42,188 bases of DNA from an uncultured Bacteroidales bacterium (GTDB taxonomy: Bacteria; Bacteroidota; Bacteroidia; Bacteroidales; WCHB1-69). The DNA is taken from positions 1 through 42,188 of the forward strand of contig CAMKLG010000026.1 of NCBI GenBank assembly GCA_946413585.1, written 5' to 3'. Under the pieces are notes generated by a model. The model was not told where the DNA came from. It saw only the letters and a program-made list of their open reading frames with translations, and made no database searches. Positions 1 to 5,595 of the stretch are shown in pieces. The first letter of the stretch is position 1, and every line of letters starts with the position of its first letter. The position numbers were made by a program, and so were the translations under genes.

Positions 1-127
1 CGTCATCAGTCGCTATATCAGCCAAATGGCGTCTTTCCTACGAGCATGAAGTCCTAGTACAATTTGCTTTTCACTGCCAAAATTAACGAAAACAGGTAGA
101 TGAAGCTGTATTTCTTCTTTGGCATAA

Positions 128-1273
128 TCACTTTATTGCTTGGTTAGGGATACTCGGCAATCCTTGTCTTTGAATATATGAAGAATATTTTTGTTGTATT
201 TTGGTGAAGAACGGAGGTAAGAGACGACCACATCGACAACCTTTTATCTCATTCCATTTTTTGATGGTGAGTTTTCTCAAAGAAAAGCAAATTATTTTCC
301 CATCAATAAATGCCACATAACAGTTATTGATTTTTTCTTGGAATTCTCCTTTAGAAAACTTTATTTCATCCTCTGATTCTGAATTAATTTTTGTCTCATC
401 TATAACATCTCCCTTCAAAAGATATAAATCTTTTTTCTCTCTTATTATATCACAATCAGGACGAATATTGATATAATAGTTATCTTCTATCAAATAAATG
501 TCTCCTGCAAACGGATAATCAGGCAACTTGTTGTTCGGAATAAAACGCTCACATTCTAAAATTTTGCGCACTTCCTCTTTTGTGATGCCTTCCTTTTCCA
601 AACTAATTATATCGTTGTCAAATTCTGGAAAAACAATACGATAAGACAAATTGTTTTGTAATGAATTCATCAATTCCCAATTTTTGTCACCGCCATCATC
701 TTGAATTGCTTTCGTTAGCACTGACGGCCAAAAGGGATGTGTTGAACTCAATTCAGATAGCATAATTGTTTTGGCCTCTCTTGTCGCTTTTTCCCATTCT
801 TTTAACACATATATAGAGGGTGTTGTTTTCAGCCAAGACTCTATTTCTCTGAAGAGTTTTTCTACAGTATCTAATTCATCTTTCTTTTTGATGAAAATGG
901 GGCTGTTTTCTGATGTGATTCCATTTTCTGAAAGAGCCACTTCTATTGTATGTGGGTCTTCATCGCTAAATATGAACAAAGGGATGAAACAAGTTTCCTT
1001 CAGTTTCTTAAGAAATATAATGTTGTCATCAATTGTAGCTTTTGGTATAGGATGCACCCCGCTAAGATTCCAGTCTAAGATCAAAAAACTGATAGAATGA
1101 AGTTTAGAAATAACCTCATCATCGGGTAAGTCCTCAAATTGAAGCAGAGGAATGTGTTTGCTCTCGATGGATTGAACAATTTTTTGAATGCCATTAGGTG
1201 TCTGATTATCATCGTGGATTGCTTCATCAATTACAACACCTATACCTGAAAAAAGCTGTACAATATCAGTCAT
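128..1273 (-). CDS. Receiver-like response protein, third gene of a DNA-methyltransferase/GHKL operon
   Basis: This 381-residue protein has an N-terminal segment that reads like a two-component receiver. It has acidic residues D16/E17 and D21/D22, a hydrophobic strand ending in an aspartate (LILDWNLSG, D67) at the usual phosphoacceptor place, a serine in FSDED (about 103) and lysines at about 129-131 where receivers carry the conserved Lys. The remaining two thirds show no catalytic motif I recognise; the end contains GCRCGRLLPP followed by a basic, Gln-rich stretch. It overlaps the upstream GHKL gene by 8 nt (start 1273, upstream stop at 1266), so translation is probably coupled. I infer that it is phosphorylated or otherwise controlled by the histidine-kinase-like module of that neighbour. 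The stop at 128-130 may reflect a frameshift, because an open protein-like frame continues to 13. The receiver assignment is moderately sure; the output function is unknown. Confidence 0.75.
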   Translation of the reverse strand: MTDIVQLFSGIGVVIDEAIHDDNQTPNGIQKIVQSIESKHIPLLQFEDLPDDEVISKLHSISFLILDWNLSGVHPIPKATIDDNIIFLKKLKETCFIPLFIFSDEDPHTIEVALSENGITSENSPIFIKKKDELDTVEKLFREIESWLKTTPSIYVLKEWEKATREAKTIMLSELSSTHPFWPSVLTKAIQDDGGDKNWELMNSLQNNLSYRIVFPEFDNDIISLEKEGITKEEVRKILECERFIPNNKLPDYPFAGDIYLIEDNYYINIRPDCDIIREKKDLYLLKGDVIDETKINSESEDEIKFSKGEFQEKINNCYVAFIDGKIICFSLRKLTIKKWNEIKGCRCGRLLPPFFTKIQQKYSSYIQRQGLPSIPNQAIK

Positions 1274-3530
1274 TTTCTTCTGAATTTACAAAGTTAATAA
1301 CAAAGTTTGCACCCGAGAGGATTTGTTCTGAAGGAATATCAGCCAACGAAATGGAATACCCCATTCTTTGGAGCAGTTGTCTTGCTATATATAATCCCAA
1401 ACCACGCCCATCCTCTTTTCCTGAATAAAAAGCCTCAAAGATATATGGTTTGTCATCGTCACGGATACCAGGTCCGTTGTCGGAAAAAATAACTTGTTGG
1501 TTTTCTCCATCAAGTGTTATGGTAATCCTTTTTTCCACAATATCGGGCATCGCCAACCAATATACGGCGTTATCAAACAAATTGATAAGTAGTTGCAATA
1601 TAACAGCATCGGTACATTTGGCAATAATTGGTGAACCGATTTTATTTACAGAATAATCTATGTGCTCTCTGTTCAAGGTCCGTTTGTAGATTTTCTCCAC
1701 TTTTTCAAGTAAATCCTCAAAACGAATCGGTCTTCTTCTTTGTTTTGAGGACTTGAACATCAATTGAATATCTCTCATTTGGTCCTTCACGAAAGAGAAC
1801 ATTCCCCTGATGGTGTGAAGCTCATTTTCAATTTGTTCGTATGTCAAGACACCACCGTCAATGTCTTTTATGAGATTGTCTATAGCATCCACTCCTTTGG
1901 TCAGCATCATTGACATATCATGAGAAGCGGTTTCCACGGATAACCCTACGGCAGCAAGATCCACAGTGTTGTTGAGTCCATCCTCATAGAACTTTTGTTC
2001 TATTCTGTAAGAATTTACCAAATCACTATAAATTGCCATCGCCTGCGAATCTCCAGACACATAAGGTTTGAGTTCATCGAACTTAGAAGCTGCAACTTTT
2101 AATTGCTTCATTTTTTGCTCCTTTTGTTGGATAACCCTTTCTTGATATTGTCTATATGCGTGTTGACGAATGAATAATAAGAAAGAGTGCAACAACACGA
2201 TAAAATCTCTCGTTGCATTTCCTTCTTCAATCAACCCTTCGCGATTGGTTTTGTCTTTCAGCCTTGGATTGCCTTGTTTAGATATGTCTACAAATCCTAC
2301 GACTTGATCGTTACTTAGATAATCTCCCGCTCGTCCGATTCCGCGCATTTTATCAATTTCAAGCCAGTCGTTATCAGGATCTCCGTATGGAGCAACTCGG
2401 ATATGATCTCGGTACAAATATATCCTATGCTCTTTTACTATAGCTTTTTCTTTTTTATCCAAAAAATAAGGACTTTCTCTATCCGCTGTAAAATCAAAGA
2501 CAAAAAAATTGAATTTGAAATCACCACAAGTTGTATTTCTAATTTCAGTTTCACCAAATAGATTAAGTTCTGCAAATCGATCTTTGAAGAATTTTAATCC
2601 TGAAATCTGGCTATCTTTGAGAGACAATGTATACGGAGCACCATTTGCCTTGTAGGTGAATTTTCCTTCTTTTTCTATGTAAGAACCATTCGTTATTTTA
2701 AGAACAGCTGAATTTTCTAATAGGGAAGACAACTCTTTAATGGTTTCATCAGAATATAATAACCTATCCCCATTACATTCGAAGCCAATTTCAAATTGAT
2801 CTTCTTTTTTCTTTTCTGAAAAGATTTTCTCAAAAATAGATTCGAGTTTCTGAGACTCAGCATTTACTGTCTTTATCTTGTCGAAGTTCCATTCGCCTTT
2901 TAAATCCGAGATTTCTATTATCGTGCCATGATCATTATCTTTCTCGAATACGGAGTTGTTAACTATGACTCTTCTTTCTATTAAATAAATCGGCATCTGT
3001 TCAGAAACAGGAATGCTAATATCATCAATGAAGAGTTTTTTCTCTTCCCCTCTTTCTGTTAAAAAGTCATCGTCATATTGTGATAAATTGTAATCGATGA
3101 TATATTCCTTATTATGTCCTTCCGGCCTGGTTATGATTCGAATGTTTCTGCCCAGTTTTAATATTGCGAATCTGCCAATACCTTTTTCTCCTTGTATGAT
3201 TCGTTGTTTTTTGGGTGTCGTTTTGACTTCATCTTCATTTTTGTTTTTTTTATTTGGAGTAGCAGGATTCATCCAACTGTCTTCAATTACTTTCATGTCC
3301 ATACCACAACCATTGTCCTCGATTATTATTTTCGAGTTCGGAGTTTTAAATAAGCCATTCTTATTCTTATCAAAGCCAAAGTTGACAAAACTTACTTTGA
3401 CCCAATCTGCATCTGCATCATAAGAGTTCTTAATGAGTTCTGCTAACGCAATTTGCTCATTCTTTATGAGTTGTTCGCCAAGCATGGTGAGCAAACGCGC
3501 GTATGGTCTTATTTTCAATGTCTTATCCAT
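1266..3530 (-). CDS. Dual GHKL ATPase: MORC/Hsp90-like N-terminal module plus histidine-kinase-like C-terminal module
   Basis: The 754-residue product has two complete Bergerat (GHKL) ATP-binding folds. The first has an N-box ELIKNSYDADAD (31-42), G1 box EDNGCGM (71-77) and G2 box GEKGIGRFA (114-122), the pattern of MORC, MutL and Hsp90-type ATPases. The second has N-box NLFDNAVYW (650-658), G1 DNGPGI (684-689) and G2 GRGLGLYIAR (708 on), the pattern of sensor kinases. Between them lies a helical segment with ASHDMS, where His537 could be the H-box histidine. No transmembrane segment or signal peptide is seen, so it should be cytosolic. It starts 3 nt after the methyltransferase stop and overlaps the receiver gene by 8 nt. 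MORC/MutL-like ATPases are known in restriction-modification loci. Coupling such an ATPase to a kinase core suggests that DNA or nucleotide state is sensed and passed to the receiver, which is inference. Confidence 0.88.
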   Translation of the reverse strand: MDKTLKIRPYARLLTMLGEQLIKNEQIALAELIKNSYDADADWVKVSFVNFGFDKNKNGLFKTPNSKIIIEDNGCGMDMKVIEDSWMNPATPNKKNKNEDEVKTTPKKQRIIQGEKGIGRFAILKLGRNIRIITRPEGHNKEYIIDYNLSQYDDDFLTERGEEKKLFIDDISIPVSEQMPIYLIERRVIVNNSVFEKDNDHGTIIEISDLKGEWNFDKIKTVNAESQKLESIFEKIFSEKKKEDQFEIGFECNGDRLLYSDETIKELSSLLENSAVLKITNGSYIEKEGKFTYKANGAPYTLSLKDSQISGLKFFKDRFAELNLFGETEIRNTTCGDFKFNFFVFDFTADRESPYFLDKKEKAIVKEHRIYLYRDHIRVAPYGDPDNDWLEIDKMRGIGRAGDYLSNDQVVGFVDISKQGNPRLKDKTNREGLIEEGNATRDFIVLLHSFLLFIRQHAYRQYQERVIQQKEQKMKQLKVAASKFDELKPYVSGDSQAMAIYSDLVNSYRIEQKFYEDGLNNTVDLAAVGLSVETASHDMSMMLTKGVDAIDNLIKDIDGGVLTYEQIENELHTIRGMFSFVKDQMRDIQLMFKSSKQRRRPIRFEDLLEKVEKIYKRTLNREHIDYSVNKIGSPIIAKCTDAVILQLLINLFDNAVYWLAMPDIVEKRITITLDGENQQVIFSDNGPGIRDDDKPYIFEAFYSGKEDGRGLGLYIARQLLQRMGYSISLADIPSEQILSGANFVINFVNSEEND

Positions 3531-3533
3531 AGT

Positions 3534-4907
3534 CTATTTCTTCATTATCAAAATGTACTCATTCGGATACACCTTCTTGCAATTTGGGTTGTCCAGTTTC
3601 GTGAATTTCCCCGTTTTGACATCTCTCAAGGTGGGCATCAATTTGTGGGGAATGCTTCTCTTGATTACTTCTATTCTGTGTAATCCCGAGTTTTTTAGAA
3701 ATTCGTAGAAAACCTCGGCGGATTTGATATCGACATCCTTAATCTTGGTGTTTCCAATCACAATGCACGCGTGACCGTCAGGAACAAGGATGCGGGCCAT
3801 TTCTGTTGCAACATCTTGCATATCGTTGAAATACTGGGCAACATCTTGCGCAATATGCTTGCTTTTTTGGGCCAATGCATACACGATGTCCTGTGCTTGC
3901 TCACTGCCTCTCACCTCCAAAGAGGTGTTCCCCGAATAGGATGTTCCTATGAATTGCTTTCTGAATTCAGACATGCTGGAAACATACTCCATCCAATAGG
4001 CTGTTAATTGGTGAATGTCCGCATATTCGTATGAGGTCACGTATGGGGGTGATGTGATAATCATGTCAACGGATTCAGACTTGAGTTGTGTTTTACGGGC
4101 ATCCTTCAAAAGAATATCGCAAGGCACATCCAAATAACCCTTTTTGTTTAGATCATTGTAAAACTCCTCATTGCTTTTCATCATTTTCTGGCAATGACGT
4201 TTAAACTCGTCAAACGGATCTGGGATGTTTTTGTTAGGATCCACTTGGGGTTTTGTGCTCGATTGAAGCCAACGGGAACAATTCTTCAAAATGTGAGAGA
4301 TGCAGACATAAAAGAACTCCTTTGTGAAATCTTCAGCTATCAATTCGTGAACTATGTCAAAGAGGAAAGCAATTTTAGATTTTTCTTGAGGCTTGAACCA
4401 ATAGTCAAGTCTCTCGTGCTTTTGTATATCTGAGTAATTTGCTTCGTTAAATTCATCAAACTGCGCAATCAAATTTTCGTATGATAGTTGAAGTGTTTCA
4501 GGAATTATCGGAGTCGTTTTAACTCGAGTGATAAGTTGAGCTACAGGATTGATGTCCGTTCCGATTGAACGTTTCCCATGTACTTTGGCTTCAACTAATG
4601 TCGTTCCACATCCAGCAAACAGATCTGCGATGACATTACAGTTGGCAGGAGAATGATCTTCGATAATTTTTTTCACCACATTGGGTAAGAACTTTGCAGG
4701 ATAACGATGGTATCCATGGGTCAATTGCTCAACTGAGCGAATGCTGTCAAAAGCCCAATCGGGATTAACAGGGATGTCGTCAAAATCAATATAAGTTTTT
4801 TTGATATCCAAATCAGATTGGACAGCACCCGACAACCCTCCCGTTCCCGCGAAAAGGTCTATCACCGTGGGGGTGTCACTCGCTCTATGTGTTTGATTTG
4901 CCAACAT
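3534..4907 (-). CDS. DNA methyltransferase, N4-cytosine/N6-adenine type, with a duplicated motif I at the N-terminus
   Basis: This 457-residue protein has SAM-binding motif I DLFAGCGTT (95-103) after a HGYHRYPAKFLP block (64-75), followed by GTDINPVA (116-123), and the catalytic motif TSPPY (285-289). This is the beta-type N4-cytosine or N6-adenine DNA methyltransferase layout with FxGxGxT and (D/N/S)PP(Y/F). Unusually, residues 15-26 (VIDLFAGTGGLS) look like motif I of a C5-cytosine methyltransferase, so two motif-I sequences lie 78 residues apart. The initiating Met belongs to this C5-like stretch, and no other Met precedes the YPAKF block. The gene heads the three-gene operon. It may mark self DNA or supply the signal read by the GHKL partner. 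No restriction nuclease is visible in the window, so a classical R-M pair is not shown. Target sequence unknown. Confidence 0.9.
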   Translation of the reverse strand: MLANQTHRASDTPTVIDLFAGTGGLSGAVQSDLDIKKTYIDFDDIPVNPDWAFDSIRSVEQLTHGYHRYPAKFLPNVVKKIIEDHSPANCNVIADLFAGCGTTLVEAKVHGKRSIGTDINPVAQLITRVKTTPIIPETLQLSYENLIAQFDEFNEANYSDIQKHERLDYWFKPQEKSKIAFLFDIVHELIAEDFTKEFFYVCISHILKNCSRWLQSSTKPQVDPNKNIPDPFDEFKRHCQKMMKSNEEFYNDLNKKGYLDVPCDILLKDARKTQLKSESVDMIITSPPYVTSYEYADIHQLTAYWMEYVSSMSEFRKQFIGTSYSGNTSLEVRGSEQAQDIVYALAQKSKHIAQDVAQYFNDMQDVATEMARILVPDGHACIVIGNTKIKDVDIKSAEVFYEFLKNSGLHRIEVIKRSIPHKLMPTLRDVKTGKFTKLDNPNCKKVYPNEYILIMKK

Positions 4908-4932
4908 TTATCGCTAATTTAAATGAAGCCCG

Positions 4933-4940
4933 CAAAAATA
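4933..4940 (-). promoter_or_regulatory. -7 element of the methyltransferase operon promoter
   Basis: Reading the minus strand, TATTTTTG fits the Bacteroidota -7 consensus TAnnTTTG and lies 26 nt upstream of the methyltransferase start codon. I do not see a clear -33 TTTG. It implies that the three-gene operon is transcribed from its own promoter rather than only by read-through from the hypothetical gene that ends at 4978. Confidence 0.5.
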
Positions 4941-4977
4941 CGCATTTTTTCTTTTATCTCCGCAGCGTTTTTCCCAA

Positions 4978-5595
4978 TTACAAAATATCCTCCGCCACTT
5001 CTTCCTCGCTTATCGAATACTTCCCCATCAGCCTCTGCACCAGCCAGATGACCTCTTCCTTTTCGAGCTTGTAACTCAAGACATCGTAGTAAGCGGTTGC
5101 TGCGTGGTTCCACTTGTAGGACATCACCGGCCCGGGCTCACGGCCTCTCACGAGAAAGTCGGAGAAGTCGGGCGCTTTCTGCCATTCAGGTAGTGTGCCA
5201 TCGGCTTCAATGGTGAGTTCCAGATAATCGCCGAAGCCCATGTCGTACGGGGGAATCAGGGCGCTGGGGACGTAACCTTGGATCTGCCAAAGCGGTTTCA
5301 TGTCATTGTCATACAAGGTGTAGGTGCCTTCGTCGCGCACCTTTGCCCAAACATGCAAATAGCCATGGCTTTCATCCCAGCCTTTCAGCTTGTGCTCCCT
5401 TAAATCCACCCAAAACTCCAATAGTTTGGTCTTTTCGTCGTACATCGGGGGTGCTAAAGATTCGTCACACTCAAATTCTGACATCAGACCGTCGTCGAAG
5501 GAGACCATCGTGTGATTGTCGCGTTTGTCGTAAGGGATAGAAATCCGGAGGAATCGAACCTCGTTTTCAAGTTTTTCTTTTAATGTTGTACTCAT
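4978..5595 (-). CDS. Hypothetical acidic cytosolic protein
   Basis: This 205-residue protein is rich in Asp, Glu and Trp, with no signal peptide or transmembrane segment. I do not recognise the family. Visible features are a basic start (STTLKEKLENEVRFLRI), a central region of likely beta strands (LLEFWVDLREHKLKGW, YLHVWAKVRDEGTYTLY, then QGYVPSALIPPYD) and an acidic helical tail (EKEEVIWLVQRLMGKYS then SEEEVAEDIL). It lies 70 nt upstream of the methyltransferase start on the same strand. However, it has a higher GC content by eye than the operon and has its own promoter with a leader hairpin, so membership in the defence-like module is unproven. The ATG at 5595 is supported by the leader and an open frame with normal codon use. 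Confidence 0.75.
   Translation of the reverse strand: MSTTLKEKLENEVRFLRISIPYDKRDNHTMVSFDDGLMSEFECDESLAPPMYDEKTKLLEFWVDLREHKLKGWDESHGYLHVWAKVRDEGTYTLYDNDMKPLWQIQGYVPSALIPPYDMGFGDYLELTIEADGTLPEWQKAPDFSDFLVRGREPGPVMSYKWNHAATAYYDVLSYKLEKEEVIWLVQRLMGKYSISEEEVAEDIL

Follow-up and report, generated by a model that had tools for sequence, protein, structure and literature searches.

A Conserved Operon of a DNA Methyltransferase, a Clamp-Bearing Histidine Kinase and a Receiver Protein in an Uncultured Bacteroidales Bacterium

Gene Organization

One end of contig CAMKLG010000026.1 from an uncultured Bacteroidales bacterium (assembly GCA_946413585.1; the whole stretch analysed, 42,188 nucleotides, is called the window here) carries three genes, all on the minus strand, that encode an amino-type DNA methyltransferase (MT, 3534..4907), a histidine kinase joined to a GHKL clamp (HK, 1266..3530) and a response-regulator-like protein (RR, 128..1273). 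The three open reading frames (ORFs) are intact; 3 nt separate MT from HK, and HK overlaps RR by 8 nt, the arrangement given in an original prediction made from the sequence alone. Two nucleotides past the RR stop lies a stub resembling the start of a C5-methyltransferase gene (MPKKKYSFIYLF...; 87..125, minus strand). On the other side of the triad is UP (4978..5595, minus strand; 205 residues, no Pfam hit), a flanking gene outside the system that marks its chromosomal site.

The window is contig C26 of a draft genome (G000; 125 contigs, 87.77% complete, 5.6% contaminated) and begins at contig base 1, with the RR stop 127 nt from the contig edge; the absence of a nuclease downstream therefore cannot be read from the window. 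The earlier remark that no nuclease is visible holds for the window itself, but this may be a contig-end effect, since several relatives continue into restriction-type genes.

The Three Proteins

MT (457 residues) matches N6_N4_Mtase (PF01555, E 2.5e-18) in Pfam and, over residues 49-427, the PADLOC profile MTase_II (E 2.1e-59). In alignment A3 its motif I (FAGCGTT, residues 97-103) comes ahead of motif IV (TSPPY, 285-289). Classic beta-class amino methyltransferases have motif IV before motif I; MT shows the reverse order, which corrects the beta-type label first attached to it. The gene is chimeric at its 5′ end (4830..4907, minus strand), because its first ~26 codons, derived from the start of a C5-methyltransferase gene, match the start of the Dcm gene in genome G006; "Dcm" denotes here a Pfam DNA_methylase match or membership of that BLAST cluster. 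The DNA at 4830-5110 is 96% identical to the G006 locus (L082), where it opens a longer Dcm-like gene, and a similar gene in L087 is DNA_methylase by Pfam. These ~26 residues are absent from all 10 relatives in A3 and present in L041.

HK (754 residues) has just two Pfam matches, both to ATPase domains: HATPase_c_3 (residues 27-157, E 4.8e-20) and HATPase_c (644-745, E 3.1e-19). Together with a histidine-bearing DHp domain they give the architecture HATPase_c_3, DHp, HATPase_c. The predicted fold is a MORC/MutL/Hsp90-like ATPase clamp (residues 8-467; 2130..3509) followed by a DHp and catalytic domain (530-752; 1275..1943), and the model matches the Morc3 ATPase cassette. HK was aligned with its relatives (A2), and in the motif counts 17 ATPase-motif positions are kept in all 28 HKs, while the phosphoacceptor H537 (1920-1922) is kept in 27, with D or E as the following residue in 26. 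Pfam domains, predicted fold and conserved motifs all uphold the proposal that a MORC/MutL-like clamp is fused to a histidine kinase. The HK of L082:4253-7743 (Dcm-HK-RR-AAA-RE_LlaJI) has Glu at the phosphoacceptor position, possibly a variant or a misalignment.

RR (381 residues) exceeds no Pfam cut-off, and neither PADLOC nor NCBIfam gives a hit at E ≤ 1. In this comparison of single protein profiles HK has no full-length PADLOC match, only a partial one to REase_II (residues 16-146, E 2.3e-7). RR residues 1-150 (824..1273) are predicted to form a (beta-alpha)5 receiver. In the 30 RRs counted (33 were collected, and three of another output type were left out), D67 (1073-1075) is invariant and the acidic pair is nearly so, with D or E at position 16 in 30 and at 17 in 28; S or T occupies position 103 in 29, and K131 is kept in 27. 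The proposal of a receiver protein with a receiver-type aspartate at residue 67 is thus supported, a receiver fold being predicted.

Residues 250-372 of RR (158..526) form an output domain with a near-universal Cys-Asp pair (C274, at 452-454, and D275) and a MazF-like predicted fold, the latter from a single, moderately confident model (mean pLDDT 73.6). The candidate reading of RR as a MazF toxin was rejected, the likeness being one of fold with no profile support: the C-terminus has no Pfam hit to MazF/PemK (PF02452); four hhalign comparisons gave E 0.069-0.24, and the receiver compared with MazF as a control gave 0.11; no MazF entry stands among the best 50 Foldseek matches listed for RR; and by eye the domain is without the MazF beta1-beta2 loop and its catalytic Arg. 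The RR subfamily of L047 and L048 has no convincing hhalign match to alignment A1 (probability 2.2%, E 0.021), and keeps the Cys-Asp motif.

Conservation and Spread of the Triad

Relatives were chosen by HK (or RR) similarity. A scan of genome contigs gave 14 loci, nine clear relatives (L002-L010) and five weak partial matches (L011-L015) that were left aside; further loci came from plasmid, phage-labelled, IMG/VR and other genome sets, including three plasmids (H1, H4 and H16) opened from 421 matched records. An amino-type MT adjoins HK in 19 loci, the window included, and stands directly before HK in every one. RR directly follows HK in every one of the 18 whose sequence reaches that far; the remaining locus, L008, breaks off within HK, and L042, cut near its contig start, retains just the end of MT. 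Loci with the MT-HK-RR order occur in Bacteroidota and as far afield as Bryobacterales, and also on an Allorhizobium plasmid and two virus-labelled contigs; the phage-labelled scaffold L038 (6 kb) is unverified. Scans of viral contigs with HK and MT as queries found no relative, and one was found with RR. At E ≤ 1e-30, and with the organism's own genome counted in both samples, HK matches occur in 4 of the 104 family genomes and in 12 of 395 genomes sampled across the phylum. Eight of the 11 other phylum genomes were opened (all except G519, G294 and G397); three have MT-type loci (L042-L044) and the others distant HKs. Independent cases are fewer than the counts, because L003, L004 and L005 have near-identical MTs and HKs, and L002 is close to L009.

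The triad genes are under purifying selection. Between homologous genes, whole-gene dN/dS lies at 0.02-0.12 wherever dS is computable (window-L002 for HK, near saturation, and RR; L003-L004 for MT and HK; L004-L005 for all three genes; L002-L009 for MT and HK; window-L041 for MT); window-L002 MT and all window-L009 values are saturated. The RRs of the window and L041 (25% identity) give 0.47, a comparison of exchanged genes that is not informative on selection. The order in all uncut loci and the low dN/dS together exclude a chance arrangement, and the three genes, predicted as an operon from one sequence, do co-occur elsewhere. More distant relatives have Dcm in the place of MT (L045, L047 and L048, and L080-L082 at the window's own site).

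Genes Beyond the Regulator

The genes after RR vary from locus to locus ("McrB-like" denotes AAA_5 and/or PADLOC PDC-M26A or the same cluster, and the name McrB is our own reading). RR is followed in L009 by two Dcm genes, a McrB-like gene and a 740-residue protein without a Pfam hit; in L003 by Dcm, a McrB-like gene and DUF2357+PDDEXK_7; in L004 by HNH_2, an unknown gene, a McrB-like gene and a DUF2357-cluster protein; in L002 by a McrB-like gene, a Schlafen-AlbA_2 protein and a DUF2357-cluster protein; and in L041 by Dcm, a NOV_C protein, a McrB-like gene and a large partner. L005 has a methyltransferase that by eye is of D12 type, and a protein with a below-cut-off HARE-HTH match and a weak REase_II match; in L006 a Schlafen group 3 helicase (PDC-S41) follows. 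In L040 MT is preceded by a type III Mod gene and RR is followed by a ResIII helicase, which places the triad between Mod and Res, apparently inside a type III system. The restriction-type genes close to RR in L009, L003, L004, L040 and the G006 locus bear out a repeated association with restriction.

Other loci continue with an HmaC/DUF499-type ATPase (L010), a transposase-like gene (L007, by eye), a protein without clear family (L036), a DUF4365 protein (L050) or AlbA_2 and AAA genes on the opposite strand (L042); L043 has no same-strand gene shortly past RR, and the sequence ends too soon for the cargo to be read in L017, L038, L044 and L008. A rule by which the type of RR dictates the nuclease is not supported: type-B RRs (L003, L009) directly precede Dcm, but these are two loci against five of type A, and in L004 and L005 different cargo stands behind RRs that are 99% identical.

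Past RR, L002 has a stub like the window's, and L009 has a full-length Dcm-like ORF that starts MPRKKYTFIDLFAG 2 nt past RR. An ancestor probably had RR followed by Dcm.

Exchange between Loci

The window and L041, which belong to the same genus and occupy the same chromosomal site, are 89.6% identical in DNA through UP and the whole of MT. The likeness ends at window position 3535, the MT/HK border, past which the HKs are 31% and the RRs 21-25% identical. A further point of exchange lies within the start of RR: L003 and L004 are 95% identical through HK and their likeness ends 56 nt into RR, at the same base where that of L003 and L005 ends, and the similarity of L009 both to L002 and to the window ends 50 nt into RR. 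The RR tree rejects the HK clades {window, L002, L009} (p-AU 2.7e-4) and {L003, L004, L005} (p-AU 5e-47), values that are descriptive because both groups were named after the junctions had been seen and quick trees were used. L004 and L005, with RRs 99% identical, diverge from 60 nt past RR. The operon is well supported and conserved, and apparently mobile.

A Defence Hotspot in the Genus

Among 40 genomes of the genus, 10 have UP matches, with 11 copies in all; flanks were viewed beside 10 of the copies, the G020 copy (37% identity) being left out. The gene marks a defence hotspot at which two-component loci of restriction-modification (R-M) type, an AbiLi-like ATPase, a Schlafen helicase and HNH alternate. 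The site holds MT-HK-RR in the window and G021; Dcm-HK-RR (Dcm by eye) in G006, G010 and G017, continuing in G006 into an AAA_5 protein and RE_LlaJI (24.4 vs 23.6 bits); an AbiLi-like ATPase gene in G013 and, by eye, a similar one in G009; a DUF5131 gene and Schlafen helicase PDC-S41 in G014; and HNH in G002. A second UP copy in the window's own assembly (L087, G000:C80) is accompanied by Dcm up to the contig end and could be a paralogue or come from a contaminating relative.

The terminal 55 bases of the window's tail match, at 92.7%, DNA ~50 nt before the G014 Schlafen helicase, which suggests that a helicase of this type, found after RR in L006, may lie beyond the window edge. A search of the window's own, incomplete assembly with the Schlafen-helicase protein of L083 found no match, and the tail DNA gave just a chance-level second hit.

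Relation to Described Systems

Kinases with HATPase_c_3, HEF_HK and HATPase_c domains have been found to adjoin a receiver-like gene and to be enriched near R-M genes (Bellieny-Rabelo et al. 2021, PMC8011034); methyltransferases, with C5 types stressed, are often upstream of them, and the Response_reg_2 proteins were described without any other known domain. The triad resembles this HEF_HK (PF19191)/Response_reg_2 (PF19192) pair in its kinase architecture, adjacent receiver-like gene and upstream methyltransferase, and in the R-M neighbourhood of its relatives; the combination is therefore not the unprecedented one it had been taken for. The C-terminal region of RR is shared with eight Response_reg_2 proteins (hhalign E 7.9e-8, 2.1e-9), whereas the receiver halves gave no hhalign alignment and any link between them runs via other RRs; the Cys-Asp domain found here covers the gap left on Response_reg_2 in the 2021 study. 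The HK of L049, 26% identical to that of the window (E 8e-52), passes HEF_HK (26.3 vs 24.1 bits), and those of L043 and L044 match it below cut-off only. The window differs in having an amino-type MT, whereas C5 enzymes are stressed for HEF_HK loci, and an RR of 381 residues, against 525-575 in the eight aligned Response_reg_2 proteins. By these sequence comparisons the triad is a divergent branch related to the HEF_HK/Response_reg_2 family, outside its published profiles. On contig C134 of G342, a window-type HK-RR (L042) and a genuine HEF_HK/Response_reg_2 pair (L051/L054) lie ~10 kb apart, with a Dcm-cluster gene between them.

The paraMORC/MORC proteins of R-M operons (Iyer, Abhiman and Aravind 2008, PMC2292703) likewise place a GHKL+S5 clamp beside methylases and nucleases, but the window clamp continues into a histidine kinase; the portion of that article consulted contains neither "receiver" nor "two-component". 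The LlaJI R-M cassette, as presented in the sections consulted of O'Driscoll et al. (2006, PMC1459862), has four genes, none of them a kinase or regulator. It is matched by the L009 cargo (two C5 methyltransferases, an AAA ATPase and a fourth large protein) and, through RE_LlaJI, by the G006 locus, whereas the window itself shows nothing of this cargo. The module is not described in the part consulted of PMC12839542, and a literature search that barely covered subscription journals and bioRxiv found no later work on this kinase-regulator family and no functional or experimental test of it. The triad had also been set apart from Detocs, BREX and Dnd, systems that it is not known to match.

Proposed Role

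We consider the triad to be that part of a restriction-type defence locus which signals and marks self, on a divergent branch of the R-M-associated two-component family of 2021, with a probability of roughly 0.6. The MORC/MutL-like clamp of HK would engage or sense DNA, for example unmodified or incoming DNA, and its state would gate autophosphorylation of H537; phosphate would pass to D67 of RR, and phospho-RR, via its C-terminal domain, may switch on or assemble the neighbouring restriction genes, while MT would protect host DNA. In the window the restriction part may lie beyond the contig end or have been lost. Domain architecture, conserved active residues, operon order and the proximity of restriction genes in relatives come directly from sequence or models; DNA sensing, phosphotransfer, the RR target and the defence phenotype are inferred.

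Several observations weigh against this. No nuclease is shown in this genome; the window HK has no PF19191 hit at E ≤ 1 and RR no PF19192 hit, nor does either profile hit elsewhere in G000. The loci were picked by similarity to HK (or RR), and several are near-duplicates. The cargo is variable and not always restrictive (L007, L043, L010, L036 and L050), and it differs between L004 and L005 despite their 99% identical RRs, so RR is not tied to one nuclease.

An epigenetic switch, in which kinase and regulator control an orphan methyltransferase through its activity or its expression, would suit the constancy of MT-HK-RR while cargo changes, and the purifying selection on MT. It is nonetheless unlikely, since defence genes often flank the triad in relatives, the site acts as a hotspot of defence systems, R-M among them, and MT can be exchanged or replaced by Dcm. 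Quite unlikely, too, is that the locus is a decaying remnant that has lost its restriction half and survives as an inactive or selfish modification-signalling fragment: the Dcm stub 2 nt past RR, the chimeric MT start and the failure to find in the assembly the Schlafen-type gene suggested by the flank match are in keeping with decay, but the three ORFs are unbroken and closely resemble conserved relatives, and the assembly is incomplete and the contig ends there. Abortive infection under phosphorelay control, with the MazF-fold domain of RR (an RNase or other enzyme) as an effector switched by phosphorylation and no separate nuclease needed, is improbable given the lack of profile similarity to MazF, of a MazF entry among the Foldseek matches listed and of the loop with the catalytic Arg, the reliance of the fold on one model, and the restriction genes after RR in several relatives.

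A bolder form of the restriction-locus reading has a small chance of being correct: a phosphorelay-gated innate immunity in which the MORC/MutL-type clamp is the kinase's sensor, and the MazF-fold Cys-Asp domain, an enzyme or nucleic-acid reader, licenses interchangeable restriction cassettes, whole RR genes being exchanged under the same kinase. Restriction is usually viewed as constitutive, with methylation as the sole self signal. If the proposal is true, a kinase that has a DNA-clamp-like ATPase as its input domain and stands between a methyltransferase and exchangeable restriction cassettes makes restriction inducible, and bacterial MORC-like proteins gain a testable role; the near-invariant H537, D67, C274 and D275 and the exchange points open direct experiments on the 2021 family. 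New here are the output domain with its motif, the exchange of RR at a fixed point, the exchange at the MT/HK border, the chimeric MT start and the shared defence hotspot.

Repeats Downstream of the Regulator

Tandem TTAGTGGGTAAST repeats lie between RR and cargo in L003 (11429-11484) and L004 (6115-6170), with three exact copies each, and in L005 (6725-6758), with two; they are spaced 21-22 nt apart. Tandem TTAGTGGGTAACT repeats past RR were considered as RR operators and rejected; they are treated as a junction element because one genome carries copies at other gene junctions too. Exact copies of TTAGTGGGTAAST elsewhere number 4 of 7 in G522, 1 of 4 in G523 and 0 of 2 in G524, with none in three other genomes.

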